Shown here in pieces: positions 6,307 through 22,023 of a DNA stretch of 64,000 nt (positions are counted from its first letter, which is position 1; every line of letters starts with the position of its first letter). Under the pieces are notes generated by a model. It made no database searches, was not told the DNA's origin, and was given only the letters and a program-made list of their open reading frames with translations. Made by a program: the position numbers and the translations under genes. Source of the DNA: Devosia indica. Its GTDB lineage: Bacteria; Pseudomonadota; Alphaproteobacteria; Rhizobiales; Devosiaceae. The stretch covers positions 1-64,000 of the forward strand of contig NZ_PYVZ01000018.1 of assembly GCF_003056405.1 (NCBI RefSeq). Reading direction: 5' to 3'.

Positions 6307-7042
6307 GCGGGCTCCGGTCACGCTCGGCGGCCGCGCGCCGCTGATATTCAGTGCCGATCGCAAAGTGCTGCATCAGCAGGCGATCGGCGCTGTCAGCGTC
6401 TCTGGCGGCCACAGCCGCCAGCAATTCACGATGGTGTTCGACCAGATAGGTTTCGATGCCGTCCAGGCTGGTGATGCGTTCGCGGCGCTCCAGGTGTGAG
6501 CGCTTGAGCAGGACGGCTATTGCTGCATGAAGGCTTGCCAGGGTCGGGGAGTGTGCGGCCGCGATCAGCGCGGCGTGAAAGTCAAAGTCGGCATCGCCAC
6601 CGATCTGTGGGTCTTTCACGGTTTCCTCAACCCGCCGCAGCGCCTCGCCGAGCGCCGCAAGGTCAGATGAGGTCGCGCGCGCGCAGGCCAGTCTGATGGC
6701 CTGTCGCTCGATGGCGATGCGCGCTTCCATGACATCCTCGACCACCTCGCCCTGCTGGGCGAGCATCATGGTGAACAGGTCGCCCAACTCGGCGAAATCC
6801 GGGCGCCGGACGACGCTGCCATAGCCGTGGCGAATTTCGATCACGCCGATGGCGGCCAGCGCGCGCAGCACTTCGCGGATCACCGGCCGGCTGACGCCGA
6901 GCCGCGTGGCCAGTTCTCGCTCTGGCAGCAGCCGGTCGCCGGCCTTCATCTGTCCCGAGAGCAATTGTTCGCGCACAAAGGCGAACACCTGATCGTACCC
7001 GGTGGCCGCGTCGGCGGGTTCTCGCGTCAGTCCTGCTCCCAT
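6296..7042 (-). CDS. GntR-family (FadR/FCD) transcriptional regulator
   Basis: 248 residues from ATG 7042, preceded by AAGGA six bases away. The winged helix (about 15-80) has LATRLGVSRPVIREVLRALA; the FCD domain follows with FDFHAALIAAAHSPTLASL and a late His in VEHHRELLAAVAARDADSA. It diverges from the RpiB/RraA operon across a gap with TGGTAATACCA, a consensus FadR/PdhR-class operator, so it most likely represses that operon in the absence of an acid inducer. It converges with, and slightly overlaps, the aldehyde dehydrogenase gene. Confidence 0.88.
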   Translation of the reverse strand: MGAGLTREPADAATGYDQVFAFVREQLLSGQMKAGDRLLPERELATRLGVSRPVIREVLRALAAIGVIEIRHGYGSVVRRPDFAELGDLFTMMLAQQGEVVEDVMEARIAIERQAIRLACARATSSDLAALGEALRRVEETVKDPQIGGDADFDFHAALIAAAHSPTLASLHAAIAVLLKRSHLERRERITSLDGIETYLVEHHRELLAAVAARDADSADRLLMQHFAIGTEYQRRAAAERDRSPPTS

Positions 7043-7120: not shown

Positions 7121-7149
7121 TTGTCAAAGTGGTAATACCACGGTATGAA
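7121..7149 (+). promoter_or_regulatory. Promoter with overlapping GntR operators upstream of rpiB-like gene
   Basis: TTGTCA (7121-7126) and TATGAA (7144-7149) are separated by 17 bases. The spacer and -10 carry TGGTAATACCA (7130-7140), a perfect TGGT-N3-ACCA site of the PdhR/LldR class, overlapping ATACCACGGTAT (7135-7146). Binding there would block RNA polymerase. The flanking GntR gene is the obvious regulator. Confidence 0.68.
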
Positions 7150-8609: not shown

Positions 8610-10367
8610 TCAGAGACGCTGCAGCATCAGGCCCCAATCCATCGCATCGGGACGGGGCGGCAAGGGCAGCACACCATTTCGCGGCACCGAAACCGCCTCG
8701 CCCGGTTCGTGCCATTTGCCGTTGCGCGGATCAAAGAAGCGTGGCTGGAACCGGTCACCCGGCTTAACGCCGCGCAGCCGTGCCTCCATCGGCGCGTCGG
8801 CCTCGAAATAGAGCATGACCAAGGAGCGGTCCGGCGTGGCCGCGCAATAGCTCCACCCCTTATAGGCATAGCCTGGCCCCGTCTTGTTGGGGACCACCAT
8901 TTCGGTGCAGGGCGTCAGCTCAAGATAACGCTGGCCCTCGACAGTGGCGAAGGTCTTGAGGTGCTGAACCTGACTGCCCGATTCCCAGCCGAAGCTGTCC
9001 CACATCTTATGCAGCGATTCCGGCTCGACGTCGGATTGCCAGATGCCCTCGGCCCCATAGATGAACCCGGCCAGTCCACCTGAGAGGAAGCTGCCGTATA
9101 GGCCGGAGCGGACATAGATGCGATCGTCCTCGCTGTCGGGCGGCACCCGCAATGGATAGGGCTCGCCGAGCTGGTGCAGGCCGGCATAATAGGGTTCGCC
9201 ATTGATCGCCGGCTTGCGCTCGGCCTCGAACATCTCGGTCAGGTACCAATAGGTATAGTGCTCGCGCACATTGCCCGATTGGTGTAGGTCAATCCAACTG
9301 TCCGGCCCGAAATTGACCAGCGTCGAAGGATTGGGATTGGCCGTCAGCAGGGTGCCGAATGGCGGCTTTCCATAGCGCTCGAGCGCCAGGTTGATCGGCA
9401 CATTATAGTCTTCTGCCGGGATCGTTTGTTCGTAGTAGTCGTAGTGGATGGGGCTCAGCAGCGTGATATGGGCCCCATAGCGGGCGATCATGTACTGCAC
9501 ATAGCGCGCGTAGGATTCCGGCCAGTCATGGAATTTATGCCAGCACTGGCCGCTGTCGCGCCGCGAGATCTCGATGAACGGCACCATGCCCTGGTCGTTG
9601 AGGTAGTCGATCTTGCGATCAAGAACCTTGAAATAGTCCGGATTGATGCGGTCCATGTCGGGAAATACGTCCTCGAAGCCTGGCACCTTGCCGGGGAATT
9701 CGAAGGGCCGGCCGCCTTCATTGTGCATGTCCTTGGCGGACTGGGTACCCGGCTGTTTCCAGGCGGCCCGCACCCAGGTGCCGTCATCCATTTGCAGGCT
9801 GTTCGGCTTGCCATCATTGGCCCAGGCGGGCTGGGCAGCAATCAGGCCGACGCAATTGAACCCCTGCGCCTTGCGCACGGCCACATAGTCGTTGAGCGTG
9901 GATTGGGGACCGAGCGTGCCAGTGGTCTCATTTGTCTCTGCAAGCGGAAAGCGGAAGCTGGGAAGCGACCACCATGTGTCGCCCAGAAGGAAGAACGGGG
10001 TGCCGTCGGCATATTGCAGCCCACGACCATTCGCGCTCGCCCCGATCATGCCGCGCCGGTTTGGATTGGCATCCAGCTCCGCGGCCGTCCAGCTCTCGGC
10101 GACAAACCTGCCGGATTGCCCCGATAGTCCGGTATCATTGAGGCTGCTGCCACTGGTCCAGTGCCACTCGCCCGGGGCGTTGGCAAGCACGCGGACGACC
10201 CACTCGTCTCCGCCGTTCCAGAACCCGTATACGCGCCTGGAGAAATCTGGCCCCTCAAGGTCCACCCAGACCAGCGCGTCGGCATAGGGGTTGTCGAAAT
10301 TGGTGCTGGCCCTGAAGGTTAGGTCAATCCTGGTCCAAACCTTGGTGCGGTTATTGGACGTGCTCAC
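8610..10367 (-). CDS. DUF4038/GH140-like glycoside hydrolase with DUF5060 and collagen-binding-like domains
   Basis: 585 residues from GTG 10367; AGGAGG sits six bases before it, whereas it abuts the ATG at 10373. The N-terminal beta-sandwich (about 1-95, VWTRIDLTFRA, GFWNGGDEW) resembles DUF5060. The TIM-barrel region (about 115-470) begins FFLLGDTWW, the DUF4038 hallmark, and has FIEISRRDSGQCWHKF, NGEPYYAG and SGGLAGFIYGAEGIW. The tail (about 490-585) resembles the collagen-binding-like domain paired with DUF4038. GH140 members include apiosidases acting on plant rhamnogalacturonan II. No signal peptide is seen, so it should act on imported oligosaccharide. It is alone in its strand between two catabolic operons. 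Substrate unproven. Confidence 0.72.
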   Translation of the reverse strand: MSTSNNRTKVWTRIDLTFRASTNFDNPYADALVWVDLEGPDFSRRVYGFWNGGDEWVVRVLANAPGEWHWTSGSSLNDTGLSGQSGRFVAESWTAAELDANPNRRGMIGASANGRGLQYADGTPFFLLGDTWWSLPSFRFPLAETNETTGTLGPQSTLNDYVAVRKAQGFNCVGLIAAQPAWANDGKPNSLQMDDGTWVRAAWKQPGTQSAKDMHNEGGRPFEFPGKVPGFEDVFPDMDRINPDYFKVLDRKIDYLNDQGMVPFIEISRRDSGQCWHKFHDWPESYARYVQYMIARYGAHITLLSPIHYDYYEQTIPAEDYNVPINLALERYGKPPFGTLLTANPNPSTLVNFGPDSWIDLHQSGNVREHYTYWYLTEMFEAERKPAINGEPYYAGLHQLGEPYPLRVPPDSEDDRIYVRSGLYGSFLSGGLAGFIYGAEGIWQSDVEPESLHKMWDSFGWESGSQVQHLKTFATVEGQRYLELTPCTEMVVPNKTGPGYAYKGWSYCAATPDRSLVMLYFEADAPMEARLRGVKPGDRFQPRFFDPRNGKWHEPGEAVSVPRNGVLPLPPRPDAMDWGLMLQRL

Positions 10368-10385
10368 AGTCATCCTCCTGCCGCT

Positions 10386-11174
10386 TCAGCGGCCTTGCCA
10401 TTCAGGCTTGGTTTTGTTGACGAACGCCTCGACGCCGCGCCGAAAATCCTCACTGCCATAGGTGAGGCCGATGAGGTCGTCCGCCGGGTCGATATCGCGG
10501 GCCAGGACGCGGCCTATGGCTGCCTTGCTGACACGCAAGGTAATGGGGGCATTTTCGAGCAGACGCTCGACCACCTCCTGCGCTGCCTCGTCGATTTCTT
10601 CGGGCTCTACCAGACGGGCAAGAAATCCTGCCGTCATGGCTTCCTCTGCCGCGATAAACTCGGCCAGCAGGAGCATGCGCTTGGCACGCGCTTCGCCAAA
10701 GCCACCAACGACACGGGCATAGGTCTGCATGGATACGCAATTGCCAATGGTGCGCGCGATCGGGCTGCCGAACCTGGCCCGGGTGCTGGCAATGCGGATA
10801 TCGCAGCACGCCGCAATATTGAGCCCGCCACCAACCGCCCAGCCATCCACAATAGCCACAGTGGGTACCGGTACCGCCAGGATGCGCTGGAAATAGCGGT
10901 TCATCTTGGCTTCATAGGCAATGCCATCGTCGCCGCCGCTGAATTCCCTGAATTGGGAAATATCGGACCCGGCAACGAAGGCCTTGCCACCGGCGCCCCG
11001 CAATGTCACGACCCGCAGCTCGCTATCCTGGCTTAAGGCAGCGAGAATGGCGTCGAGTTCTTCATACATGGCCCAGGTAAAGGCGTTGTGCGCCTTGGGC
11101 CGGTCAAAAGTTATCCGTGCGACGGCGCCATCCCGATCAAGACGCACGCGCCCCTGGTCAACGGGTTCTGTCAT
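10386..11174 (-). CDS. Enoyl-CoA hydratase/isomerase family protein
   Basis: 262 residues, crotonase fold. GGKAFVAGSDISQFREF near 65 and VDGWAVGGGLNIAACCDIRI near 110 form the oxyanion hole that binds the CoA thioester; SPIARTIGNCVS follows where many members hold a catalytic acid. Crotonase-fold enzymes hydrate, isomerise or hydrolyse acyl-CoAs. Its start overlaps the CoA-transferase stop as ATGA (11171-11174), so it probably acts on that enzyme's acyl-CoA product. It shares the GntR-controlled promoter near 12470. The exact reaction is not determinable. Confidence 0.85.
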   Translation of the reverse strand: MTEPVDQGRVRLDRDGAVARITFDRPKAHNAFTWAMYEELDAILAALSQDSELRVVTLRGAGGKAFVAGSDISQFREFSGGDDGIAYEAKMNRYFQRILAVPVPTVAIVDGWAVGGGLNIAACCDIRIASTRARFGSPIARTIGNCVSMQTYARVVGGFGEARAKRMLLLAEFIAAEEAMTAGFLARLVEPEEIDEAAQEVVERLLENAPITLRVSKAAIGRVLARDIDPADDLIGLTYGSEDFRRGVEAFVNKTKPEWQGR

Positions 11175-12397
11175 ACCGGGACCGCTTTGCGGTTCTGCTG
11201 GTCGATCAGGTCCAGTTCAGCCAGTATCTCTTCATTGTGCTGGCCCAGCAGAGGGGGCGGGCGACGGACCGCGGCGGGGGTGTGTGACAGCTTTGCCGGA
11301 AACCCCAATGCCTTGAAACTGCCCTCTACCGGATGCTCGATATCGATCACCGCCTTGCGGTGATGGACATGTTCATTGTCGAGCGCAACGCTGTAGTCAT
11401 TGATCGGGCCGGCGGGAACGCCAGCGCTCAGGAACAGATCGACCCATTCCTCGGCAGTGCGGGTGAGGAAAGTCGGACGCAGCTCGTCCGCCAACTCGCC
11501 GCGCCGCTGGACGCGGTCGATATTGTTGGCGTAGCGCGGGTCGTCCTTGAGTTCGGGGCGGCCGATCGCATCGCAGAAGATCAGCCAGAGCTTCTGATTG
11601 GCCGCGCCGACCACGAAGTAGCCATCCGATCCGGCAAAGGCCTGATATGGGGCACTCATGCGATTGGCGGTGCCCAGTGGTCCTGGCGACTTGCCTGTCG
11701 CCCAATATTCAGTGCTTTCCCAAACCGATAGCGCAAGAGCCGCGTCGAGTAGCGAGGTGTCTATGTACTGGCCCTTGCCGGTGCGCTCGCGCCCAAGCAC
11801 AGCCGAAAGGATGCCATAGCAAGCGAACATGCCGGCGCCGAGGTCGCCCACAGGAATGCCCGATTTGACCGGTTCTGCGCCTGGAATACCGGTGCCGCTG
11901 ATGACGCCGCCCATGGCCTGGGCAATCAAATCGAAACCGGGGCGCTGTGACCACGGCCCGGTCTGGCCAAAGCCCGAGATGCTGGCATAAATCAGTCGTG
12001 GGTTGATCCGCGACAGCGTCTCGAAGTCGGCACCAAGCTTCTTGCTGACCCCCGGACGGCTGTTCTCGACCAGGATGTCCGCGGTTTCGACCAGCTTGTG
12101 CAATGTGCGCTGGCCTTCCGGTGTCTTGAGATCAAGCGTGATGCTGCGCTTGTTGCGGTTGAGGGCCAGAAAACCAGGACTGTCCTCGCCCTTCATGCGA
12201 AAACCCATCGATTTTCTGGTCTGGTCGCCGGTGCCGGGTGGTTCCACCTTGATGACATCCGCGCCCATGTCACCCAGCAACATGCAGCAGAACGGGCCGG
12301 CCATGACCTGGCTGAGATCGAGCACGCGCAAGCCGGTCAATGGCGGCAGGTTATCGGGCGCTCCAGTTTGGCTGGAATTGGCAGCGCGTTCGGACAT
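11171..12397 (-). CDS. CaiB/BaiF family (class III) CoA-transferase
   Basis: 408 residues, ATG 12397 preceded by GGGAGGAGCC. LRVLDLSQVMAGPFCCMLLG near 23, ADVIKVEPPGTGDQTR, NRNKRSITLDLKTPEGQ near 80 and VGDLGAGMFACYGILSAV near 175 mark the family; the Asp of GDLGAG is the predicted catalytic residue that forms the aspartyl-CoA anhydride. These enzymes move CoA between carboxylic acids (formyl/oxalyl, carnitine, succinyl-type donors). It is first in a two-gene unit with a crotonase. The operator CTTGTATACAAG lies 54 bp upstream, shared with the divergent GntR gene. Confidence 0.88.
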   Translation of the reverse strand: MSERAANSSQTGAPDNLPPLTGLRVLDLSQVMAGPFCCMLLGDMGADVIKVEPPGTGDQTRKSMGFRMKGEDSPGFLALNRNKRSITLDLKTPEGQRTLHKLVETADILVENSRPGVSKKLGADFETLSRINPRLIYASISGFGQTGPWSQRPGFDLIAQAMGGVISGTGIPGAEPVKSGIPVGDLGAGMFACYGILSAVLGRERTGKGQYIDTSLLDAALALSVWESTEYWATGKSPGPLGTANRMSAPYQAFAGSDGYFVVGAANQKLWLIFCDAIGRPELKDDPRYANNIDRVQRRGELADELRPTFLTRTAEEWVDLFLSAGVPAGPINDYSVALDNEHVHHRKAVIDIEHPVEGSFKALGFPAKLSHTPAAVRRPPPLLGQHNEEILAELDLIDQQNRKAVPV

Positions 12398-12450
12398 CGG
12401 CTCCTCCCAAGTGCAGAAAGGCGGCGCCGAGCCCCTTCCTGTTGTCTATT

Positions 12451-12477
12451 CTTGTATACAAGACTGGTGTTGGTCGA
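12451..12477 (-). promoter_or_regulatory. Composite promoter/operator of the CoA-transferase operon
   Basis: CTTGTATACAAG (12451-12462) is a perfect palindrome. On the minus strand the layout is TCGACC (12477-12472), ten bases, TTGTATACAAGAATAGA, giving a -10 of AAGAAT 18 bases after the -35. The same layout occurs at 13325 and 16568 on the plus strand. It lies between the divergent GntR regulator and the CoA-transferase. Confidence 0.75.
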
Positions 12478-12520
12478 AAATCAAGGGTGGAAATCCGTGA
12501 TCTTGCTTTTTTTGTGAAAG

Positions 12521-12531
12521 CTGCATACGAG
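12521..12531 (+). promoter_or_regulatory. Degenerate operator just before the GntR start
   Basis: CTGCATACGAG matches TTGCATACAAG at nine of eleven positions and lies five bases before the ATG at 12537. It may serve autoregulation; the match could also be chance. Confidence 0.4.
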
Positions 12532-12536
12532 CAAGC

Positions 12537-13241
12537 ATGGACAAAACTGCAGAAAACGGCCCCTGGGCAGACGAATCCGGTGACACTTCAGGTCGGAAAA
12601 AGGGACAGTTGCATGCAGAAGCTGCCGGCAAACTGCGGAGCATGATCCTGTCCGGCGAGCTTCCGCCGGGTGAGCGGCTGCGAGAAATGCAGCTATGTGA
12701 ACAACTTGGCGTATCGCGCACGCCGGTCCGCGAGGCGCTGCGGACGCTGGCGGCGGAAGGGCTGGTTGATCTTTTGCCCAACCGCAGTGTCGTTGTGTCC
12801 GAACTGCACGCACCGGATCTGGAGCATCTTTTCGTCGTCTTTGGCGCGATTGAAGGGATTGCTGCAGAACTGGCCTGCCAGAAAATCACCGAAGCCGAGA
12901 TTGGCGAGATTGGCCGGTTGCTGGCGGAGATGATCGATTATCACGCCCGCAAGGAGCGGGCGCCCTATATGCAGATCAATCAGAAGATCCACCAAAGAAC
13001 GGTGGAAATTGCTGCGAACCCAGTGCTTTATACGGTATGGCAGTCGCTTGTGCCGAGGGTGGAGCGTGCGCGTGCCTTGGCCAATCTGGATACCGGCCGC
13101 TGGACCGGAGCGCTGTTCGAGCACACCAAGATGTTCACGGCGCTGGCGTCCCGTGATGGTCAATTGCTCGCGCAACTGACCAGGGAGCACTTCCTGAATA
13201 GCCTGCCATTCCTGCAGTCTCGCCTGGAAAATGACGACTAG
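12537..13241 (+). CDS. GntR-family (FCD) regulator, probable master of the TTGYATACAA regulon
   Basis: 234 residues from ATG 12537; the ribosome binding site is weak. The winged helix (about 25-85) holds LCEQLGVSRTPVREALRTLA and the wing LVDLLPNRSVVV. The FCD part has EIGEIGRLLAEMIDYHARKE, MQINQKIHQRTVEIA and a late His in LTREHFLNSLPFLQSR, the usual metal/acid-binding set. Operators of the TTGTATACAA type are typical of FCD GntR proteins, and near-identical copies stand before this gene and at three nearby promoters (12451, 13340, 16583). It therefore probably represses the CoA-transferase, RraA and ABC-importer operons. Confidence 0.88.
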   Translation: MDKTAENGPWADESGDTSGRKKGQLHAEAAGKLRSMILSGELPPGERLREMQLCEQLGVSRTPVREALRTLAAEGLVDLLPNRSVVVSELHAPDLEHLFVVFGAIEGIAAELACQKITEAEIGEIGRLLAEMIDYHARKERAPYMQINQKIHQRTVEIAANPVLYTVWQSLVPRVERARALANLDTGRWTGALFEHTKMFTALASRDGQLLAQLTREHFLNSLPFLQSRLENDD

Positions 13242-13324
13242 AGTAGCGGTGCGGCGTTCGCCCAGTTTTCGGGCATGATGCCTGGGTGAATTCCTGTTCG
13301 CCGAAAAATATGCGCCGAAAAGCG

Positions 13325-13354
13325 TTGACTCACTGAAACCTTGCATACAAGAAT
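13325..13354 (+). promoter_or_regulatory. Composite promoter/operator of the second RraA operon
   Basis: TTGACT (-35, 13325-13330), 18-base spacer, AAGAAT (-10, 13349-13354). The operator CTTGCATACAAG (13340-13351) overlaps the spacer and -10, so bound repressor would block polymerase. The geometry is identical to that at 16568. Confidence 0.75.
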
Positions 13355-13433
13355 GGTGTGTGGATCGGGGGGAGCCCATCCAAATCACTTCATTCAAAGG
13401 GTGGCGCCAATCGAGCGCCAGCAAGGATTCGTC

Positions 13434-14207
13434 ATGTCTTACGAGCCCAAGGATGCCGACGGCAACGCCGTGGATCCCTATCATATCCGCAAATTTTTCG
13501 AGCCCTTGCGCGTCGTCGATGTCGCGGACGCCATGGATGGCCTTGGTTATTTCAATATTGGTCTGGTGTCCCAGGATATTCGTCCGCTCTGGCTGGGCAT
13601 GAAGTTCTGGGGGCCTGCGGTCACCCAGCGCTGCGTTCCGGCCAACAAGCCGATGTGGCCGCTCGAAACGACCGAGGAAATCGTTGGTGCGCACGGTATC
13701 TGGTTCAACAAGCACGGGCACAATGGCCGCGGTCTCAATGACCTGGTGAAGGACGGCAGCGTCGTTGTCACCGATGTGGGCAGCTCGGGCGAGGTTGGTT
13801 TCTTCGGGTCCGAAAATGTCCTTGCCCTGCAAGCCGCCGGTGCAGTGGGTATCGTCACCAATGGCCATTGCCGCGACACCGGTGAAGTCACCATGCAGAA
13901 GACGCCGATGGTTTGCCGGGAGCGCGGCCGCACCATCATCCCCGGACGCATTGAGGTTGTCGAACTCAACACCACGATTGGCATCGGGGGCGCGCAGGTG
14001 CGTCCTGGCGACATTGTGGGCTGCGACGACGATGGCCTGATCGTCGTGCCGATCGAGATCGCCAAGCAGGTCGCCCTGCATGCCAAGGCGGTGCTGATCG
14101 CGGACATGAACGCCCGGCGCAAGCGCTACGATGCCCTTGGGCGGCCCCATGACGAGAGTGTCGATACCGGCGCCATTGATCGCTACTACGCTGAGCTTCA
14201 GGCCTAG
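13434..14207 (+). CDS. RraA-family protein, aldolase-like (second of three)
   Basis: 257 residues from ATG 13434 (AAGGA six bases upstream); the in-frame ATG at 13341 lies inside the operator and is rejected. PLRVVDVADAMDGLGYFNIG opens the domain, GIVTNGHCRDTGEV near 145 has the catalytic Arg-Asp pair, and VRPGDIVGCDDDGLIVVPIE near 190 is the RraA core. Expected chemistry is retro-aldol cleavage of a 4-hydroxy-2-oxo diacid to pyruvate, or oxaloacetate decarboxylation. It heads a four-gene unit under the GntR operator, followed by a lactonase-like hydrolase and a dehydrogenase. It is not an RNase E regulator by context. Confidence 0.82.
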   Translation: MSYEPKDADGNAVDPYHIRKFFEPLRVVDVADAMDGLGYFNIGLVSQDIRPLWLGMKFWGPAVTQRCVPANKPMWPLETTEEIVGAHGIWFNKHGHNGRGLNDLVKDGSVVVTDVGSSGEVGFFGSENVLALQAAGAVGIVTNGHCRDTGEVTMQKTPMVCRERGRTIIPGRIEVVELNTTIGIGGAQVRPGDIVGCDDDGLIVVPIEIAKQVALHAKAVLIADMNARRKRYDALGRPHDESVDTGAIDRYYAELQA

Positions 14208-14220
14208 CGATATCGATGTC

Positions 14221-14243
14221 GGGAGCCGGATGATCCGGCTCCC
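14221..14243. other. Intercistronic hairpin between rraA-like and amidohydrolase genes
   Basis: GGGAGCCGGA, loop TGA, TCCGGCTCCC: perfect 10-bp stem, 14 bases after the stop and 16 before the next start. No T-run follows, so it more likely adjusts mRNA stability than ends transcription. Confidence 0.6.
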
Positions 14244-14259
14244 GCAAGGGGAGGGGATT

Positions 14260-15171
14260 GTGCGGGTTATCGATGCACACCAGCATTTCTGGGATCTTGA
14301 CGCCAATTATCTGCCTTGGCTCGCCGACAAGCCGGTGAACTTTCGCTACGGCAATTACGATGCGCTCAAGCGCAATTATCTGCCTGGCGACTATCGGCGC
14401 GATGCCGCAGCGTTCGAGCTGGCCGGAAGCGTCTTCATCGAAACCGAATGGAATCCGGCTGATCCGCTCGGCGAGGTCGCCTGGGTCGAGGCGCTTCGCA
14501 AGAAGGAAGGGCTGCCGAGCGTGATGGTCGCGCAGGCCTGGCTGGACCGGGATGACGCTGCGTCCGTGCTTGAGGCGCATGGCCACACCGAATTTGTCCG
14601 TGGCATCCGGCACAAGCCAAAGGCAGCAGCGCGCCCCGAGGATGTTGAGAAAGGTGCGCCTGGCAGCATGGGTGACCCGGCCTTCCGGCGGGGTTTTGTC
14701 ATGCTGCAACCAAATGGTCTTAGCTTTGATCTGCAAACGCCCTGGTGGCATCTGGCGGAGGCCGCGGATCTGGCGGCGGCCTTCCCGGACACCCAGATCA
14801 TCATCAATCACACCGGCCTGCCTTCCGACCGCAGTGCGGATGGCCTCAATGCCTGGCGCAGTGCCCTGAAGCGGGCCGCCGCGTGTCCCAATATCGCGAT
14901 CAAGATTTCGGGGCTGGGTCAGAAGGATCTTCCCTGGACCGTCGAGGCAAATGGCCCTGTCGTGCGCGACACTATCGAAATCTTCGGTGTGGCGCGTTGC
15001 ATGTTCGCGTCCAATTTTCCGGTCGACAGCCTGGTGGCTGATTTCGGCACCATATTCAACGGGTTCATGGCTTGCGTGAGTGACCTGCCCGAACCGGACC
15101 AGCAGGCATTGTTCCATGACAATGCCGCCCGCATCTATCGTGTTCAGCCCCAGGAAGGAGTGGCGCCGTGA
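14260..15171 (+). CDS. Amidohydrolase-2 family hydrolase, probable sugar-acid lactonase
   Basis: 303 residues from GTG 14260, preceded by GGGGAGGGG; the longer frame to 14131 overlaps the RraA gene and the hairpin. VIDAHQHFWDLDANYLPWLA at the start carries the metal-binding HxH and matches L-fuconolactonase, L-rhamnonolactonase and 4-sulfomuconolactone hydrolase. FVRGIRHKP, IIINHTGLPSDR (second-metal-site His) and MFASNFPVDSL follow. It should open a lactone ring to the free acid. Its stop overlaps the next gene's start as GTGA. It probably feeds the dehydrogenase and RraA enzyme of the same operon; the lactone is unidentified. Confidence 0.82.
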   Translation: MRVIDAHQHFWDLDANYLPWLADKPVNFRYGNYDALKRNYLPGDYRRDAAAFELAGSVFIETEWNPADPLGEVAWVEALRKKEGLPSVMVAQAWLDRDDAASVLEAHGHTEFVRGIRHKPKAAARPEDVEKGAPGSMGDPAFRRGFVMLQPNGLSFDLQTPWWHLAEAADLAAAFPDTQIIINHTGLPSDRSADGLNAWRSALKRAAACPNIAIKISGLGQKDLPWTVEANGPVVRDTIEIFGVARCMFASNFPVDSLVADFGTIFNGFMACVSDLPEPDQQALFHDNAARIYRVQPQEGVAP

Positions 15172-16070
15172 CCGGACTTGCCTTCGACACCTCGACCCGC
15201 CTTGGCCTTGTGGGCCTGGGCATCATGGGGGCGCCCATTGCACAGCGGCTGCGAGAGCAAGGCTATGAGCTCACGGTCTGGAACCTGGAGCCGGAGCGTT
15301 TTGACACCGTCAGGGACAGCGGCGCGAAATGGGCCTCGAACCCGGCCGAAGTCTGGAAACACTCCGACGTTGTGTTTGTCTGCGTTCTGGGCGACGCAGC
15401 CATCGAAAGCGTCTGTTTCGGCGCGAGTGGCTTCGCCGCGGCTGGCCGTGGCGCACGGATGCTGGTTGATCTTTCGACCACTTCGCCGGAGGCGACGCTG
15501 GAGCTGGCAGGCCGTCTGGAAAAAGAGCTGGGCGCAAAATGGGTCGATGCGCCGATGTCTGGTGGTCCGGCACCGGCCCGCCAGGGGGAACTCACGGTCA
15601 TGGCGGGTGGTGATCCCTCGGCGTTCGGAGCTGTGGAGCCCTTGCTGCGCGCCATTGCACAGAACGTCACGCTGATGGGGCCGCTGGGCGCGGGTCAGAA
15701 GACCAAAATCCTGAATCAGGCAATCGTGGGCGCCAATTACATCCTTATGGCCGAGATACTTGCGAGCTGCCGCGCCGCCGGGATTGACCCGGATCTTCTG
15801 CCCGTCTGCCTCAAGGGCGGGCTCGCGGACAGCGCGATCCTGCAACGCATCTATACGCAGATGAGTGCCGAGGACTTCGACCCACCGCGCAGTTATGTGC
15901 GCCAGGTGAACAAGGACCTGAAATCGGTGGAGCATTTCGTGCACGATCTGGGGCTTGAATTGCCCCTGCTCGATGTCGCCGTGCGGCAATATCGTCTCTA
16001 TGCGGAAGCCGGCAACGAAATGGAAGACGGCGCGTCGGTGTCGCGCCTTTACCAAAAGACCACTGGCTAG
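15168..16070 (+). CDS. Beta-hydroxyacid dehydrogenase (3-hydroxyisobutyrate/tartronate-semialdehyde type)
   Basis: 300 residues from GTG 15168 in a GTGA overlap with the upstream stop. GLVGLGIMGAPIAQRL near 13 is the Rossmann GxGxxG; DLSTTSPEATLELAG near 103, VDAPMSGGPAPARQGELTVM near 125 and GQKTKILNQAIVGANYI near 180 (catalytic Lys) are family signatures. It oxidises or reduces a 3-hydroxy acid with NAD(P) in the cytosol: 3-hydroxyisobutyrate, tartronate semialdehyde or four-carbon sugar acids (LtnD/DenD type). Its place after a lactonase suggests it oxidises the released sugar acid at C2 or C3. Confidence 0.86.
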   Translation: MTGLAFDTSTRLGLVGLGIMGAPIAQRLREQGYELTVWNLEPERFDTVRDSGAKWASNPAEVWKHSDVVFVCVLGDAAIESVCFGASGFAAAGRGARMLVDLSTTSPEATLELAGRLEKELGAKWVDAPMSGGPAPARQGELTVMAGGDPSAFGAVEPLLRAIAQNVTLMGPLGAGQKTKILNQAIVGANYILMAEILASCRAAGIDPDLLPVCLKGGLADSAILQRIYTQMSAEDFDPPRSYVRQVNKDLKSVEHFVHDLGLELPLLDVAVRQYRLYAEAGNEMEDGASVSRLYQKTTG

Positions 16071-16084
16071 CCGGGGAGGGTGCA

Positions 16085-16381
16085 GTGCTGTTCATCGTCA
16101 GTGGCCGCGACAAGGCGGATGGCATGGCAGGCAGGCTGGAGCATCGCCTGCAGCACCGTGCCTATTATGCCGGACTGGACGAAGATCTCGTTCTTGCTGG
16201 TCCCTATCTAGATGCGGCTGGAGAGCCGATCGGCAGCATGATCGTGATGCGCGCGGCGTCGCAAGAGGCCGCCGAAAAATTTGCCTTTGCCGACCCATAT
16301 TGGACCCAGGGCGTGTTCGAAAGCCTCACAGTGTCCCGATGGGACTGGTTCATGAAGCGACCTGACGGACTGTCTGGATAG
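16085..16381 (+). CDS. YciI family protein
   Basis: 98 residues from GTG 16085. The ferredoxin-like YciI fold is indicated by LFIVSGRDK, RAYYAGLDEDLVLAGPYLD with the conserved His-region (LEHRLQHRAYY), and FADPYWTQGVFESLTVSRWDW, where YciI proteins carry the conserved F-x-D-P-y/f motif. Function in catabolic operons is unclear; relatives include muconolactone-isomerase-like and dehalogenase-like proteins. It is last in the operon, 15 bases after the dehydrogenase. A copy of the GntR operator abuts its stop codon. Confidence 0.8.
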   Translation: MLFIVSGRDKADGMAGRLEHRLQHRAYYAGLDEDLVLAGPYLDAAGEPIGSMIVMRAASQEAAEKFAFADPYWTQGVFESLTVSRWDWFMKRPDGLSG

Positions 16382-16391
16382 TTGCATACAA
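16382..16391. promoter_or_regulatory. Additional TTGCATACAA operator-like site
   Basis: TTGCATACAA begins right after the YciI stop codon, 202 bp before the operator of the ABC importer. It could be a distal site for DNA looping by the FCD regulator or the remains of a duplicated promoter. No matching -35 was found. Confidence 0.5.
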
Positions 16392-16567
16392 TAGTCTTTC
16401 GCCGATCGCGGTCGCCGAATGCGCCCTGCATCCCTGTACACACGTCCATAGGGGGCTCCTTGGTTTGATTTTCTCGCATTTCTTCCTTGTTGGACAAGGT
16501 GTGCAGAGTGATCTGCAGGGGAATCCGCGCCAGACAGGAGAAGCGACAAATTAGTGACTCATTATCG

Positions 16568-16597
16568 TTGACAGTGGCAGTTCTTGCATACAAGAAT
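16568..16597 (+). promoter_or_regulatory. Composite promoter/operator of the sugar ABC operon
   Basis: TTGACA (16568-16573), 18-base spacer, AAGAAT (16592-16597). TTCTTGCATACAAGAA (16581-16596) is palindromic except at its centre. Geometry equals that at 13325, and the core differs from it only in flanking bases. The remaining 120 bases to the start codon carry no other clear signal. Confidence 0.78.
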
Positions 16598-16719: not shown

Positions 16720-18066
16720 ATGCAAGAATTCCGTCTTAAGAAGAGGGTGGCTGGATCACTGCTCGCTACCTCGATCCTGGCTCTGTCCATGGCCGTTCTG
16801 CCAAACGGCGCGGCCGCGCAGGATAGTGACCTGCAGGGCGAGATCCGGTTTAGCTGGTGGGGTGGTCAGGTCCGCAACGACAAGACTGACCGGATCATCC
16901 AGCTTTTCGAAGGTCAGCACCCGAACGTTTCCATCGTTCGCGAGAACGCAGACTGGGCGCCTTACTGGGAGCGTCTGACGATCCAGTCGACGGGCAACAA
17001 CCAGCCCTGTGCCATCACCATGCAGACGCGTTGGCTGGCAACCTATGCGCGTCCCGACATCCTGATGCCACTCGATGAGCTGGTCGAGAACGGAACCCTG
17101 GATGTGTCGGGTATTCCTGAGCCCGTGCTGAACTCAGCGCGCGGTGCAGATGGCAATCTCTACATGATCCCGCATGGCGTGTTCTACTTTGCGCTCATGT
17201 ATAATGAGCAGATGGCGCAGACGGCCGCTGATGCCGGGGTTGCTCCGCTCGAATACCCCTACACTTGGGACGAGTTCGCTGAATATCTGACCGCCATCCT
17301 CCCGCACCTGCCCGAAGGGGCGGCCTCGGTGCACAATATGGGTCGCGAGCAGGATGCCTTCGTGACCTGGGTGCAGTCGCATGGCGAAGATGTGTTCGAC
17401 GGCTCGAATGTCGCCTTCAGCAAGGATATTGCCGTCCAGTGGTTCGAATATTGGGAAGCCCTGCGCACGGCCGGAGTCACCGAGCCTCCCGAGGTCATGA
17501 TCAGCGACAATAGTGCGTTGATCGAGGAATCCAACATTGCCAACAATCGTGGCTTCATGACCAACCGTCCGCCCAACCAGCTTGGTTCGGTGCAGACGAC
17601 CGTGGATACCGTGAGCCCCGGCACCACGATCGGGATCACGCCCTATCCGGTTGGTCCTGATGGAACGGTTGGCATGGATATCGGTGCCAATGGTATCGCG
17701 ATCGGTGCAAGCTGCGATGAGGCGCAAATCCCCGTGGCCGCCGAGTGGATCAATTTCTGGACGCAGAACGAAGAAGCGGCCGGGATCTACGAGTCGGATA
17801 ACGGCGTGGTGTCCATTCCCGCCCTGGCGACCGCGCAGGCCGAAGATCCGGATACGCAGCCGACCCAGGTACAGCATATCGAGCTTTATCAGCAGATTAT
17901 CGATACCGCCAATCCGGTGTTCTGGCCGGCCGGTGGATATCAGGCTCTGACCGATACGCTCAATCGCGCCTACGATGCGGTGGCCTTTGGTCAACTGACC
18001 CCCGAACAGGGTGCTGATCAGCTCATCGCCGATCTGCAGCAGCAGCTTTCTCAGGCTGCCCGCTAA
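16720..18066 (+). CDS. Sugar ABC transporter substrate-binding protein (MalE/UgpB class)
   Basis: 448 residues from ATG 16720 (AGGGAGGAAACC upstream); an earlier frame to 16633 lacks a signal peptide start. Residues 1-34 form a signal peptide (basic KKR, hydrophobic core, AAA cleavage site). The mature protein reads GEIRFSWWGG and later NQPCAITMQTRWLATYA and DIGANGIAIGASCDE, as in cluster-B solute-binding proteins for sugars. It captures a carbohydrate in the periplasm and delivers it to the permeases encoded next. It is first in a six-gene operon under the GntR operator. The ligand is not predictable from this sequence alone. Confidence 0.9.
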   Translation: MQEFRLKKRVAGSLLATSILALSMAVLPNGAAAQDSDLQGEIRFSWWGGQVRNDKTDRIIQLFEGQHPNVSIVRENADWAPYWERLTIQSTGNNQPCAITMQTRWLATYARPDILMPLDELVENGTLDVSGIPEPVLNSARGADGNLYMIPHGVFYFALMYNEQMAQTAADAGVAPLEYPYTWDEFAEYLTAILPHLPEGAASVHNMGREQDAFVTWVQSHGEDVFDGSNVAFSKDIAVQWFEYWEALRTAGVTEPPEVMISDNSALIEESNIANNRGFMTNRPPNQLGSVQTTVDTVSPGTTIGITPYPVGPDGTVGMDIGANGIAIGASCDEAQIPVAAEWINFWTQNEEAAGIYESDNGVVSIPALATAQAEDPDTQPTQVQHIELYQQIIDTANPVFWPAGGYQALTDTLNRAYDAVAFGQLTPEQGADQLIADLQQQLSQAAR

Positions 18067-18075
18067 TCTAGCGCT

Positions 18076-18105
18076 GGCGCGCGGGCCGGTGAGTGCCCGC
18101 GCGCC
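18076..18105 (+). other. Intercistronic hairpin after the substrate-binding protein gene
   Basis: GGCGCGCGGGC (18076-18086), 8-base loop, GCCCGCGCGCC (18095-18105): perfect 11-bp GC stem without a T-run. Such structures after binding-protein genes commonly protect the upstream message and lower permease expression. Confidence 0.72.
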
Positions 18106-18178
18106 CATTTCGGCGAATGGCCGAAGCTGATTTCGACCCAGCATGGTCTGCGTCAGGCAGGCGAAAAGGGAGACTGAA

Positions 18179-19156
18179 TTGAGCTCGATTGATGCCGCCA
18201 ATGATCCGGTACTGACCGCGTCGGAAACGGCGAAGTCCGTGCGGGAAATCCCTCGCAATAGAACCGGGTCTGCCCTCAAGAAGGCCGATAACAGGGCGGC
18301 CTATATGTTCCTCTTGCCCTGGTTTGCCGGCATCATCCTGATTACGGCCCTGCCTATGCTGGTTTCGCTCTACCTCAGCTTCACCAATTACGCGGTGATC
18401 GGCCTGCCCTCGTTTGTCGGGTTCGACAATTATGTGCGGCTGTTCACATCGGATCGGCGGTTCATCACCTCGATATGGGTGACGCTGAAATATGTGGGTT
18501 TCTCGGTGCCGCTGGTGCTGCTGTTCTCGCTGACCATTGCAGTTGCCCTCAATCGCGGCCTGCGGGGGCTGGCGATCTACCGCTCGCTCTTCTATGTGCC
18601 CTCACTTATCGGTGCCAGCGTCGGTATCGGCCTGCTCTGGAAGGAAGTGTTCGGCGAGCGTGGCGTCGTCAATGACATCCTGGCCCTGTTCGGTGTGGCT
18701 GGCCGTGGCTGGATCAACAATCCGACCTTTGCCTTGCCCTCGGTCATTGCGCTGAACGTCTGGACGTTCGGTGCGTCCATGGTGATCTTTCTGGCCGCGC
18801 TGCGGCAGATCCCGGAATCCTACTATGAGGCTGCCTCGATCGACGGGGCCAATGCCTGGCAGCGGTTCCGCAGGATCACCCTGCCGCTGATCACGCCGGT
18901 TATCTTCTTCAACACCGTGCTGCTGCTGATCAATTCGTTCCAGTCCTTCACCCAGGCCTTCGTGGTGTCCAACGGGCGGGGCGGGCCGGTGGATTCGACG
19001 CTGCTCTATTCACTCTATCTCTACCAGCAGGCGTTCCAGCAACTGCAGATGGGCTACGCCTCTGCGATGGCCTGGATCCTGCTGATCGCTATCGGCCTTG
19101 CAACGGCGCTGATGTTCTGGTCCTCACGCTATTGGGTGTTCTATGGCGACCGTTAA
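18179..19156 (+). CDS. Sugar ABC transporter permease (MalF type)
   Basis: 325 residues from TTG 18179, chosen because AAGGGAG (18166-18172) is correctly spaced; ATG 18143 would add 12 residues. The first membrane segment is AAYMFLLPWFAGIILITALP, and about six span the protein. The EAA loop YYEAASIDGANAWQRFRRIT near 220 contacts the ATPase. It forms the channel with the next permease, whose gene overlaps by 14 bp. Confidence 0.88.
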   Translation: MSSIDAANDPVLTASETAKSVREIPRNRTGSALKKADNRAAYMFLLPWFAGIILITALPMLVSLYLSFTNYAVIGLPSFVGFDNYVRLFTSDRRFITSIWVTLKYVGFSVPLVLLFSLTIAVALNRGLRGLAIYRSLFYVPSLIGASVGIGLLWKEVFGERGVVNDILALFGVAGRGWINNPTFALPSVIALNVWTFGASMVIFLAALRQIPESYYEAASIDGANAWQRFRRITLPLITPVIFFNTVLLLINSFQSFTQAFVVSNGRGGPVDSTLLYSLYLYQQAFQQLQMGYASAMAWILLIAIGLATALMFWSSRYWVFYGDR

Positions 19157-20039
19157 GACATACGATCCCGAGCTGCTGCGCGCCGAGCGGCGCAAGCGCG
19201 AAAATATCCGCCGGCTAAAGGGGTTGGGCCTGCATGCCCTGCTGATCACCATCCTGGGTGTCATGCTCTACCCGGTTATCTGGATGGTGCTGAGTGCGCT
19301 GCGCCCGGAGACCGAGATCTTCGGCGACATGGGGTTCATCCCCACCAACTGGACGCTCGAGAACTTCGTGCGCGGCTGGCAGCTCTATGGGGATCTCACG
19401 TTCACGCAGTTCTATGTGAACTCGTTCATCATCTGTGCCCTGGCGATTATCGGCAATCTTCTGGCCTGCTCGATGGCGGCCTATGCCTTTGCGCGGCTCG
19501 AATTCCGCGGCAAGTGGTGGCTCTTCGCCATCATGCTCGGCACCATGATGCTGCCGATCCACGTGCAGTTGATCCCGCAATATATCTTCTTTCTCAACAT
19601 CGGCTGGGTGAACACCATCCTGCCCCTGGTGGTGCCGAAATTCCTGGCGCACGATGCCTTTTTTATCTTCCTGATGGTCCAGTTCATGCGCTCATTGCCT
19701 AATGAACTGGAACAGGCAGCGATCGTTGACGGTGCGTCCTACTGGCAGCGCTACTGGCGGATCATTCTGCCGCTTTCCATGCCGGCTCTGGCCACCACGG
19801 CCGTGTTCACCTTCATCAACACCTACAACGACTTCTTCAGCCAGTTGATCTACCTCACCGACACCGACCGGATGACGGTTCCGGTAGCTCTGCGGCTTTT
19901 CCTCGATCCGAGTGGTGGTTCCTCCTCCTTTGGCGGACTGTTTGCGATGGTACTTGTCTCCATCGGACCGGTGCTCGGTTTCTTCCTCGCCTCGCAGCGA
20001 CTGCTCACCAAGGGCATCGCCACGCAAGGTTTCAAGTGA
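19143..20039 (+). CDS. Sugar ABC transporter permease (MalG type)
   Basis: 298 residues with a cytoplasmic basic N-terminus (ELLRAERRKRENIRRLKGLG) and six predicted membrane segments, the first ALLITILGVMLYPVIWMVLS. The EAA loop ELEQAAIVDGASYWQRYWRI near 195 is typical of MalG. It pairs with the preceding MalF-type subunit and overlaps its gene by 14 bp, implying coupled translation. Confidence 0.9.
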   Translation: MATVKTYDPELLRAERRKRENIRRLKGLGLHALLITILGVMLYPVIWMVLSALRPETEIFGDMGFIPTNWTLENFVRGWQLYGDLTFTQFYVNSFIICALAIIGNLLACSMAAYAFARLEFRGKWWLFAIMLGTMMLPIHVQLIPQYIFFLNIGWVNTILPLVVPKFLAHDAFFIFLMVQFMRSLPNELEQAAIVDGASYWQRYWRIILPLSMPALATTAVFTFINTYNDFFSQLIYLTDTDRMTVPVALRLFLDPSGGSSSFGGLFAMVLVSIGPVLGFFLASQRLLTKGIATQGFK

Positions 20040-20057
20040 TCCGCCCGGAGCAGACCC

Positions 20058-21236
20058 ATGGCCAGTGTAACGCTACAGAATTTGACCAAAACCTATGCCG
20101 GTGGACAGCTTCGCGCCGTCAACGATGTTTCCCTGGAGATCGAGGATGGGGAATTCCTCGTCCTGGTCGGCCCCTCGGGCTGCGGCAAGTCGACGGCCCT
20201 GCGCATGATCGCCGGACTTGAAGAGATCACCGACGGGGCCGTGTGGATCGGCGATGAGTTCGTCAACGACACGCATCCCAAGGATCGCGACATCGCCATG
20301 GTGTTCCAGTCTTATGCGCTCTACCCGCATATGAGCGTGTACGACAATATCGCCTTCCCGCTTCAGATCGCCAGGATGCCCAAGGAGGAGGTCGACAAGC
20401 GGGTGCAGGAAGCTGCGCGTGTGCTTGAACTCGAAGCCTATCTCAAGCGGCGTCCCGGCCAGCTATCCGGCGGCCAGCGCCAGCGCGTCGCGATGGGCCG
20501 GGCGATTGTTCGCAAGCCCTCCGTATTCCTGATGGACGAACCGCTGTCCAACCTGGATGCCAAGCTCCGGGTGCAGATGCGCGCGGAAATTGCGTCGATC
20601 CAGCACCGGCTGGGTGTCACGACCGTCTATGTGACCCATGATCAGGTGGAAGCGATGACCATGGGACACCGGGTGGCGCTGCTCAAGGATGGTGTGCTGC
20701 AGCAAGTCGATACCCCGTCCAATATCTACAACAAGCCGCGCAATACCTTCGTCGCCGCCTTTATCGGTTCGCCCACCATGAACATGTATTGGGCCGAACT
20801 CGAAAAGGAGAGCGATACGCTCTTCCTCCGGCTGGGCGACAATCGGTTGAAGCTTCCGGCAACGCTTGTCGAGCAATTTTCCAGCCTGTCGCAATATGCC
20901 GGACGCAAGCTGATCGTAGGTATTCGGCCCGAGGATCTTGCCGAGGCATCCTCGATTGCCAACGCCGATCCGTCCGATTGCATCGCCGCTGAAGTCGATC
21001 TGGTCGAAGCCCTTGGTTCGGATGTGATCGTCCATATCGGCATCGACGCAAAGCCGGCCGAGGTGCGCAGCTCGGACAGCCTGGACGAGATCAAGTCCAA
21101 GGCCGGCAAGGCGCGCTGCATCGCCCGCTTCAACGCCAAAAGCCAGGTGCGCCTGGGCGACACGGTGACTGTCTGGTTCGACACCACCCGCATGCATTTC
21201 TTCGACGGCGAGACCGGCCTGTCGATCCTCAACTGA
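20058..21236 (+). CDS. Sugar ABC transporter ATP-binding protein (MalK/UgpC/MsmX type)
   Basis: 392 residues. Walker A GPSGCGKST at 38-46, Q-loop region MVFQSYALYPHMSVYDNIAF, signature LSGGQRQRVAMGRA near 135, Walker B VFLMDEPLSNLDAK near 158, and the H-loop YVTHDQVEAMTMG. The C-terminal third (about 240-392) is the TOBE/regulatory region, including LIVGIRPEDL. It powers the importer from the cytoplasmic face. The gene follows malG by 18 bases. Confidence 0.92.
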   Translation: MASVTLQNLTKTYAGGQLRAVNDVSLEIEDGEFLVLVGPSGCGKSTALRMIAGLEEITDGAVWIGDEFVNDTHPKDRDIAMVFQSYALYPHMSVYDNIAFPLQIARMPKEEVDKRVQEAARVLELEAYLKRRPGQLSGGQRQRVAMGRAIVRKPSVFLMDEPLSNLDAKLRVQMRAEIASIQHRLGVTTVYVTHDQVEAMTMGHRVALLKDGVLQQVDTPSNIYNKPRNTFVAAFIGSPTMNMYWAELEKESDTLFLRLGDNRLKLPATLVEQFSSLSQYAGRKLIVGIRPEDLAEASSIANADPSDCIAAEVDLVEALGSDVIVHIGIDAKPAEVRSSDSLDEIKSKAGKARCIARFNAKSQVRLGDTVTVWFDTTRMHFFDGETGLSILN

Positions 21237-21297: not shown

Positions 21298-22023
21298 ATG
21301 GCTATCAATAGCAGCACACTCGAGATCCTGCGTAAGGTACGCACCTCAGATGTGACCGACGCCCTGGATTCCATGGGCTACATGAATACCTATGAGATGG
21401 ATCCGCGGCTGCGCCCAATGTTCCCCGGCATCTTTTTTGCCGGCATTGCCACGACCGCCGAGTTCAACATCATCAACCGCACCATCCCGGCGATGAGCTA
21501 TGAAGAGTTCGACGATCGCCAGTACAAGCGCAATCCGGACCGCAGCACGCACCCTGACGCCCTATGGCCGGCTGGCCATAGTTTCGGTGCTCCTGATGAA
21601 GTGCACGTCGTGGACACCAAACAGTCCCGCTGTGGCCTGCTGGGCTCGAACAACTTGCTCGATGCGCGTGTCAAAGGGTCGGTCGGCTTCATCATTGACG
21701 GCGCCTGCCGCGACTCGGGTGAATGCATCATGCAGAAGGATCCGGTGTTCTGCTCGGTCCGCTCCATGCGCCACATGGCGGGCCGGCTCGAGCTCTCCTC
21801 AATGGGCAAGCCGATCACCTGCGGTGGGGTCTATGTGCGGCCGGGCGACGGTGTGATTGCCGATGACGACGGGATCGTGGTGATCCCACAGGAAGACGGC
21901 GAAGAAATCGCCAAGCGGGCCTGGATGGTTCAGGACAAGGACCGCCGCATGCGCCGCGCCTTCTATGAGAAGCTGGGCATGCCCTTCGACAAGACTGTCG
22001 AATTGGAAGAACGCCCCTGGTAA
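21298..22023 (+). CDS. RraA-family protein, aldolase-like (third of three)
   Basis: 241 residues, ATG 21298 with AGAAGGAAAG upstream. LRKVRTSDVTDALDSMGYMN at the start, GFIIDGACRDSGEC near 135 with the catalytic Arg-Asp, and VRPGDGVIADDDGIVVIPQE near 180. Its expected role is retro-aldol cleavage of a 4-hydroxy-2-oxo acid to pyruvate, or decarboxylation of oxaloacetate. Its place between the importer and the D-lactate dehydrogenase ties it to the imported substrate. It is clearly a diverged paralogue of the proteins at 7698 and 13434 rather than a recent copy. Confidence 0.83.
   Translation: MAINSSTLEILRKVRTSDVTDALDSMGYMNTYEMDPRLRPMFPGIFFAGIATTAEFNIINRTIPAMSYEEFDDRQYKRNPDRSTHPDALWPAGHSFGAPDEVHVVDTKQSRCGLLGSNNLLDARVKGSVGFIIDGACRDSGECIMQKDPVFCSVRSMRHMAGRLELSSMGKPITCGGVYVRPGDGVIADDDGIVVIPQEDGEEIAKRAWMVQDKDRRMRRAFYEKLGMPFDKTVELEERPW

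Follow-up and report, generated by a model that had tools for sequence, protein, structure and literature searches.

A palindrome over predicted -10 regions and its candidate VanR-type GntR regulator in a catabolic gene cluster of Devosia indica

The question raised by this locus is whether a short palindrome recurring at several predicted promoters of Devosia indica is the operator of the GntR-type regulator gene lying among them. The DNA analyzed, hereafter the window, comprises 64,000 nucleotides (NCBI RefSeq assembly GCF_003056405.1, contig NZ_PYVZ01000018.1, positions 1 to 64,000), and the regulator gene, of the FCD family, starts at position 12537. The first-pass annotation of this DNA had proposed that the palindrome TTGYATACAAG places three neighboring transcription units under the control of this gene. 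The proposal gained support from the confinement of the sites to the cluster, their conservation in eight other loci, and their co-occurrence with orthologs of the regulator, the regulation itself being a prediction. Judged from the sequence and by analogy with Atu1419 of Agrobacterium fabrum, the 12537 protein is very likely a VanR-type repressor that acts on the -10 regions of four transcripts, its own and three neighboring ones. A local autoregulated FCD-GntR regulon of ordinary arrangement and good conservation is thus the well-supported part of this prediction; the unusual parts (predicted intragenic and promoterless operators, a predicted leaderless regulator gene) are modest.

Occurrence and conservation of the palindrome

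The sequence TTGYATACAAGAAT was present in the window in three copies, at 12448-12461 (minus strand), 13341-13354 (plus strand), and 16584-16597 (plus strand), compared with none in 100 shuffles of the window, while the relaxed core TTGYATRCAA occurred four times against a shuffle mean of 0.11. The TTGYATACAAG palindromes described earlier were indeed found at the three promoters, each followed by AAT. A whole-genome scan of the kind suggested by the first-pass annotation (3,953,940 bases, 69 contigs) found the exact TTGYATACAAG at these three places of the cluster only. The relaxed core occurred at six places in the genome, four of them within the cluster, and its control pattern at none. With one mismatch allowed, TTGYATACAAG had 35 matches in the genome versus 17 for the reversed control pattern; with two mismatches, 13 were observed in the window against 12.3 expected by chance. 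Since this last count is at chance level, the weaker sites are supported by conservation and not by score. The sites and predicted promoters are listed below, all -10 boxes being predictions.

12451-12462, minus strand: operator 1, perfect palindrome CTTGTATACAAG, covering the predicted -10 AAGAAT of the CoA-transferase unit
12503, plus strand: regulator's own predicted promoter, -35 TTGCTT starting here, 17-base spacer, -10 TACGAG
12520-12531, plus strand: operator 2, GCTGCATACGAG, covering that promoter's predicted -10
12608-12619, plus strand: operator-like intragenic site GTTGCATGCAGA in regulator codons 24-28, additional to the five sites annotated earlier
13325-13354, plus strand: predicted promoter (TTGACT, 18 bases, AAGAAT) with operator 3, CTTGCATACAAG at 13340-13351, of the RraA/lactonase/dehydrogenase/YciI unit
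16381-16392, plus strand: operator 4, GTTGCATACAAT, without an adjoining -35, candidate auxiliary operator
16568-16597, plus strand: predicted promoter (TTGACA, 18 bases, AAGAAT) with operator 5, CTTGCATACAAG at 16583-16594, of the importer unit

The two further sites that had been annotated at 12521 and 16382 are both present, the former (from 12520) being degenerate and the latter having a perfect core with other outer bases. The two core matches outside the cluster lie on contig C23, and neither looks like part of the 12537 regulon. One, ATTGTATGCAAT (C23:219525; L122:1500-1511), stands between an ABC-type ATPase gene, recognized by eye, and another FCD GntR gene; the other is upstream of a solute-binding protein gene adjoining a LacI-like gene, likewise by eye. 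ATTGTATGCAAT combines the same core with other outer bases, which suggests that the outer base may separate regulators.

The five sites recur in the same order and places in eight related loci, namely L097 and seven loci retrieved with the regulator protein from a titled genome collection; in some of the seven, site 2 fell below the listing threshold of the scan and was read from its sequence context. Gene order is identical in all seven, from the ribose isomerase-like gene through the importer-unit RraA gene. Across the window, L002-L007, and L097 (eight loci), the operator 12-mer was 0.98 identical at site 3, 0.96 at site 5, 0.92 at site 1, 0.85 at site 2, and 0.75 at site 4, and the surrounding stretches, leaving aside the -35 and -10 positions, were 0.24-0.53 identical. 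At the three main sites the operator thus stood at 0.92-0.98 versus 0.30-0.53 in the flanks and the stretch from -35 to operator. Operator 1 was found in all 13 ortholog loci tabulated, twice with T at the first position. Site 4 scored 10-11 of 12 in each of nine loci, with individual P values of 0.003-0.031 against shuffles of the same interval; these loci are related, and a role for operator 4 beyond chance has moderate support from the sequence comparison. The distance between operators 1 and 2 is exactly 69 bases in 9/9 close loci; in two distant ones it is 70 and 71. The spacing of operators 4 and 5 varies across loci from 85 to 202 bases, and fixed phasing between them was not seen. The closest regulator among the titled loci is that of Devosia marina (99% identical); D. 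subaequoris also has the cluster. The contig of L005 is labelled as a metagenome-assembled genome of the cyanobacterium Kaiparowitsia implicata and carries a Devosia-type cluster with a regulator 82% identical to that of the window; it is probably misbinned.

The earlier description of a shared -35, 18-base spacer, and AAGAAT, with the palindrome 16 bases after the -35 start, holds at 13325 (TTGACT) and 16568 (TTGACA) and fails at the minus-strand promoter, whose -35 TCGACC is unconserved. TTGAC stands 16 bases ahead of the palindrome TTG in 11/11 loci at site 3 and in 8/9 at site 5, the remaining locus (L005) having 15 bases. At site 1, TCGACC is shared by the window and its near-twin L001 alone; the seven remaining close loci have different hexamers, and no TTGAC was found within 60 bases in any of the nine close loci. 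Identity at the claimed -35 position was 0.30 there, versus 0.90 and 0.76 at the other two promoters, and a promoter scan returned three promoter-like sites (shuffle mean 1.6) without the minus-strand promoter among them. A single conserved module at all three promoters was therefore rejected, TCGACC at 12477 being kept in 2/9 close loci. All four distant loci (L098-L101) have TTGAC ahead of site 1, at 15, 16, 17, and 17 bases, a possible sign that this element has decayed among the close loci. An alternative -35, TTGATT, lies 23 bases ahead of the TTG in 7/9 close loci; the hexamer 17 bases past it, TTGTAT, lacks the usual -10 A at position 2. This TTGATT belongs to AAAATCAAGGG at 12477-12487 (TTGATTTT on the minus strand), situated between the divergent promoters.

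The bases most needed in a -10 element are A at position 2 and T at position 6. Both are kept at the palindrome end in 13/13 loci at site 1, 10/11 at site 3, and 9/9 at site 5, and in only 4/9 at site 4. Sites 1, 3, and 5 accordingly resemble operators bound to promoters, whereas site 4 resembles one that has none.

The regulator's own predicted promoter is preserved in 9/9 close loci, with TTG 18 bases before site 2, a 17-base spacer, and TACGAG, TACGAA, or TACCAG inside the operator. The predicted start codon ATG follows operator 2 by 5 bases in the same 9/9 loci, by 6 in L098, and by 20 in L099. A transcript starting after the site 2 -10 would leave no room for a ribosome-binding sequence before this ATG; a leaderless message from a self-repressed gene is therefore suggested.

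Within the coding region, the third base was the same in all eight loci at only 10 of 220 usable codon columns, and codons 25-27, inside the 12608 site, form the only run of at least three such columns; a run of three anywhere arose in 1.3% of shuffles. The Thr of this site is encoded by ACA in 7/7 loci having Thr, ACA making up 4.5%-14.7% of their Thr codons in matched genes. The sequences behind the codon argument are related to one another. L098, L100, and L101 lack the site or have it in degraded form, and one stretch near the end of the gene has a higher mean third-base identity over six codons. We regard 12608 as an operator-like site apparently conserved at synonymous positions.

Association with the regulator across genomes

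Three overlapping, and hence not independent, genome sets of 101, 136, and 397 genomes were compared, with Fisher tests that ignore kinship. In the 101-genome set, the composite pattern was found in six genomes, the same six that carry an ortholog of the 12537 protein (at least 74% identity), and in none of the other 95. Among 136 genomes of the family, 12 have an ortholog (at least 61% identity), and the exact palindrome-containing 15-mer was present in 10/12 of these versus 3/124 others (Fisher P 4e-11, uncorrected for kinship). The two ortholog genomes lacking the exact 15-mer have CTTGYATRCAAA before AAT, with one palindrome base changed. Of the three carriers without an ortholog, G009 has a partial GntR match (37% identity, residues 29-110) about 190 bases away, and G059 and G026 have no genes of the window near the 15-mer. 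In both of the latter (L115:907 and L116:7281, respectively), the palindrome is followed by ATTTCTCTCCCCT on one strand, and it looks like a shared repeat and not an operator.

In the order sample of 397 genomes, an ortholog at the cut-off used was present in 4 and the 15-mer in 15; thus, 11 of 393 genomes without a close ortholog carry it, and the idea that the motif is unique to the 12537 ortholog group was rejected. In 8 of these 11, the 15-mer lies no more than about 110 bases from another GntR match, as judged by tblastn alone (28%-46% identity). Two of the eight, G484 (L143) and G424 (L144), belong to another family and have a GntR 43%-46% identical to the 12537 protein with CTTGCATACAAG adjoining, a cluster that keeps CoA-transferase, crotonase, dehydrogenase, and lactonase matches, and a second palindrome before the CoA-transferase. 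Unlike in the window, the 20 kb read showed no match to RraA, and the importer was matched by its ATPase only, at 32%; each genome also has one more perfect site on a contig other than the regulator's (L145:7421 and L146:7790). By eye, each of these extra sites is flanked by a gene resembling nicotinate-nucleotide pyrophosphorylase and by one encoding a protein with a cysteine-rich stretch at its start. The occurrence of the palindrome beside other GntR matches in the order strengthens its assignment to the 12537 protein and removes any claim of uniqueness; on these sequence comparisons, a broader set of FCD regulators is predicted to use it as their operator type. In the 13 loci of paralogs with 37%-43% identity (L102-L114), no exact core was found closer than 1 kb to the paralog. 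A core with one mismatch precedes the L109 paralog by 33 bases, L112 has a core about 7 kb away, and L106 includes part of the G055 copy of the cluster.

Contrary to the statement that 12537 is the single FCD GntR gene, at least two others lie in the window (6299-7042 and 1823-2530), and one or more different FCD GntR proteins of the genome might bind the palindrome, leaving the 12537 protein a bystander. The related ATTGTATGCAAT upstream of the FCD GntR gene on C23 fits such an assignment, as do the GntR matches of only 28%-32% identity that accompany the motif in other genomes of the order. Nevertheless, the motif tracks the 12537 ortholog across the family, and the palindrome between the regulator and CoA-transferase genes persists in L098-L101, whose clusters otherwise differ. 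In addition, the gene at 6299-7042 has a different candidate site of its own, TGGTAATACCA, nearby. We consider the bystander explanation quite improbable; some cross-talk with other FCD GntR proteins, at operator 4 above all, is possible.

The regulator protein and the proposed mechanism

The 12537 protein combines an N-terminal GntR winged helix (PF00392, 72.0 bits) with a C-terminal FCD domain (PF07729, 80.4 bits), both over the cut-off, and is thus an FCD GntR protein. The effector domain has seven helices in FadR and six in the VanR subgroup. In a structure model of mean pLDDT only 69.2, six were found, at residues 95-116, 119-137, 141-159, 162-181, 188-207, and 210-232. Relatives in the PDB are Brucella 7u5q and Atu1419 (6z74), and the structures nearest to the model include Atu1419 and AlkR, with TM-scores below 0.45 in the listed matches. 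N148, H152, H196, and H218, invariant in eight aligned sequences, align with the Atu1419 metal ligands Asn137, His141, His192, and His214, and R61 aligns with its base-contacting Arg45. Taken together, the Pfam domains, the weak model, and the structure matches group the protein with the VanR-type FCD regulators.

Two characterized VanR-type proteins offer a comparison. Atu1419 is reported to be an FCD GntR repressor of its own gene and of neighboring catabolic genes that binds ATGTATACAT across -10 boxes. Two of its sites lie 190 bases from each other, and a further, degenerate one is intragenic; the protein forms a tetramer for which looping was proposed, serves the hydroxycinnamate pathway with methylenetetrahydrofolate as effector, and is described by its authors as the first VanR structure to be solved with DNA (PMC7797058). 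The window resembles this system in a short palindrome around GTATAC overlapping the -10 boxes of the regulator's own and adjacent genes, an extra distant site, a degenerate site in the coding region, and the aligned Asn/His ligands and Arg. It differs in the palindrome (CTTGYATRCAAG in the window), and Atu1419 is a proven tetramer with its own pathway and effector; about a quarter of the residues are identical in the structural alignment. AlkR of Pseudomonas aeruginosa is likewise a VanR-type FCD GntR repressor covering -10 regions, with a palindrome with TTGT...ACAA arms (ATTGTCAGACAAT); it differs in an operator of 13 bases with a longer center, a fatty acyl-CoA effector, and a dimeric protein that has a single main operator plus two additional weak sites (PMC12042122).

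A literature search on GntR, FCD, GTATAC, and operator returned Atu1419 only, and one on VanR, GntR, TTGTATAC, and palindrome returned AlkR and Atu1419 as the papers on point. Searching for the palindrome in four spellings found no GntR regulator paper (titles and abstract starts), and TTGTATACAA found no GntR operator paper among the matches listed (titles). Likewise, no on-point paper was found by title for a Devosia GntR regulon, and none in searches for apiose catabolism with GntR, for FCD motifs in Rhizobiales, or for RraA, CoA-transferase, lactonase, GntR, and sugar ABC transporter together.

In the window, the palindrome covers the predicted -10 boxes of the regulator's own and neighboring promoters, and, by analogy with the position and behavior of Atu1419 and AlkR, the 12537 protein would be a repressor released by a pathway metabolite. 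Two of its winged helices would bind the two halves of CTTGYATRCAAG, and binding at the -10 regions of three catabolic promoters and of its own, apparently leaderless gene would block RNA polymerase. The effector would be an intermediate of the pathway; a small carboxylate sitting in the Asn/His metal pocket is the probable candidate. Effector binding would release the repressor and switch on together the CoA-transferase/crotonase/glycoside hydrolase, RraA/lactonase/dehydrogenase/YciI, and importer/RraA/D-lactate dehydrogenase units. The weak sites at 16381 and 12608 lack promoters and probably serve as auxiliary operators, possibly bridged by a tetramer. That all six sites form one bridged repression complex of about 4 kb, with a tetrameric VanR-type protein, a leaderless message, and an undescribed sugar pathway from glycoside hydrolase and lactonase to CoA thioesters, is a rather unlikely extension.

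Several points weigh against repression by the 12537 protein as outlined. The minus-strand promoter has no conserved -35 at its claimed place, and the variable spacing of operators 4 and 5 disfavors a rigid loop. Other FCD GntR genes are present, as described above, and in 3/11 order genomes (G357, G186, and G026) the 15-mer has no neighboring GntR match. Because the cluster genes travel as a group, part of the regulator's co-occurrence with the palindrome reflects that of the cluster. Finally, the structure model is weak, and the binding and expression side of the account is predicted.

The poor -10 elements (AAGAAT) and the promoter without a conserved -35 would also suit a protein that binds these sites and acts mainly as an activator. 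However, the palindrome overlaps the -10 and has its center about 15 bases upstream of the predicted start, as befits a repressor; Atu1419 and AlkR are reported to repress from the same position, and activation is accordingly very improbable. It is hardly credible that the repeats are recent promoter duplications or unchanged sequence with no regulatory role: two promoters do resemble copies of one module, but the sequence separating -35 from operator is 0.32-0.34 identical at sites 3 and 5, compared with 0.76-0.98 for operator and -35, and the regulators of L002-L007 are 73%-95% identical to that of the window, which argues for selection on the elements.

With repression by the 12537 protein as the favored account, CTTGYATRCAAG provides a group of the order's VanR-type GntR regulators with a testable candidate operator. 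The predicted co-regulated set comprises 13 genes and the regulator, and its substrate could be traced from the compound that relieves repression. Small, checkable additions would be the operator inside the coding region and the self-repressed gene with its leaderless message. Further VanR members with defined operators would be useful, Atu1419 having been the first solved with DNA by the account cited above.

Genes of the three units and a second candidate site

The regulator and the genes predicted to be controlled by it are as follows.

8610-10373, minus strand: apiosidase-like glycoside hydrolase (PF13204, PF16586), third minus-strand gene, after a 12-base gap
10386-11174, minus strand: enoyl-CoA hydratase/isomerase family protein (PF00378), overlapping the CoA-transferase gene
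11171-12397, minus strand: family III CoA-transferase, CaiB type (PF02515)
12537-13241, plus strand: FCD-family GntR regulator, VanR-like, predicted cluster repressor (PF00392, PF07729)
13434-14207, plus strand: RraA-like aldolase family protein (PF03737)
14230-15171, plus strand: amidohydrolase 2, lactonase-like (PF04909)
15168-16070, plus strand: dehydrogenase of the 3-hydroxyisobutyrate/tartronate-semialdehyde reductase family (PF03446, PF14833)
16085-16381, plus strand: YciI-like protein (PF03795)
16720-21236, plus strand: sugar ABC importer, with binding protein, two permeases, and MalK-type ATPase (PF01547, PF00528 twice, PF00005)
21298-22023, plus strand: RraA-like protein of the importer unit (PF03737)
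22075-23760, plus strand: quinone-type D-lactate dehydrogenase (PF09330; NF008387, 897.7 bits, over the cut-off)

The CoA-transferase/crotonase unit described earlier is present and was incomplete as drawn, since it continues after the 12-base gap into the glycoside hydrolase-like gene; the spacing of the three genes is that expected of one operon. The D-lactate dehydrogenase gene is the probable end of the importer unit. Among the rows shown for the 10 proteins scanned, the NCBIfam cut-off was passed only by the D-lactate dehydrogenase and the enoyl-CoA hydratase, the match of the latter being to a broad subfamily only. The 14230 protein scored 94.8 bits against L-fucono-1,5-lactonase, far under the cut-off of 400 bits, and the nearest PDB match of the importer binding protein is YesO (5z6b, 1.8e-31). 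From the hydrolase and the importer, our guess at the substrate is a plant-wall sugar or sugar acid.

The palindrome TGGTAATACCA at 7130-7140 stands just ahead of the ATG (7145) of a ribose isomerase-like gene, on the side facing the divergent FCD GntR gene at 6299-7042. We take it to be a FadR-type motif, and by its sequence and position it is a candidate operator of a second, separate regulon.

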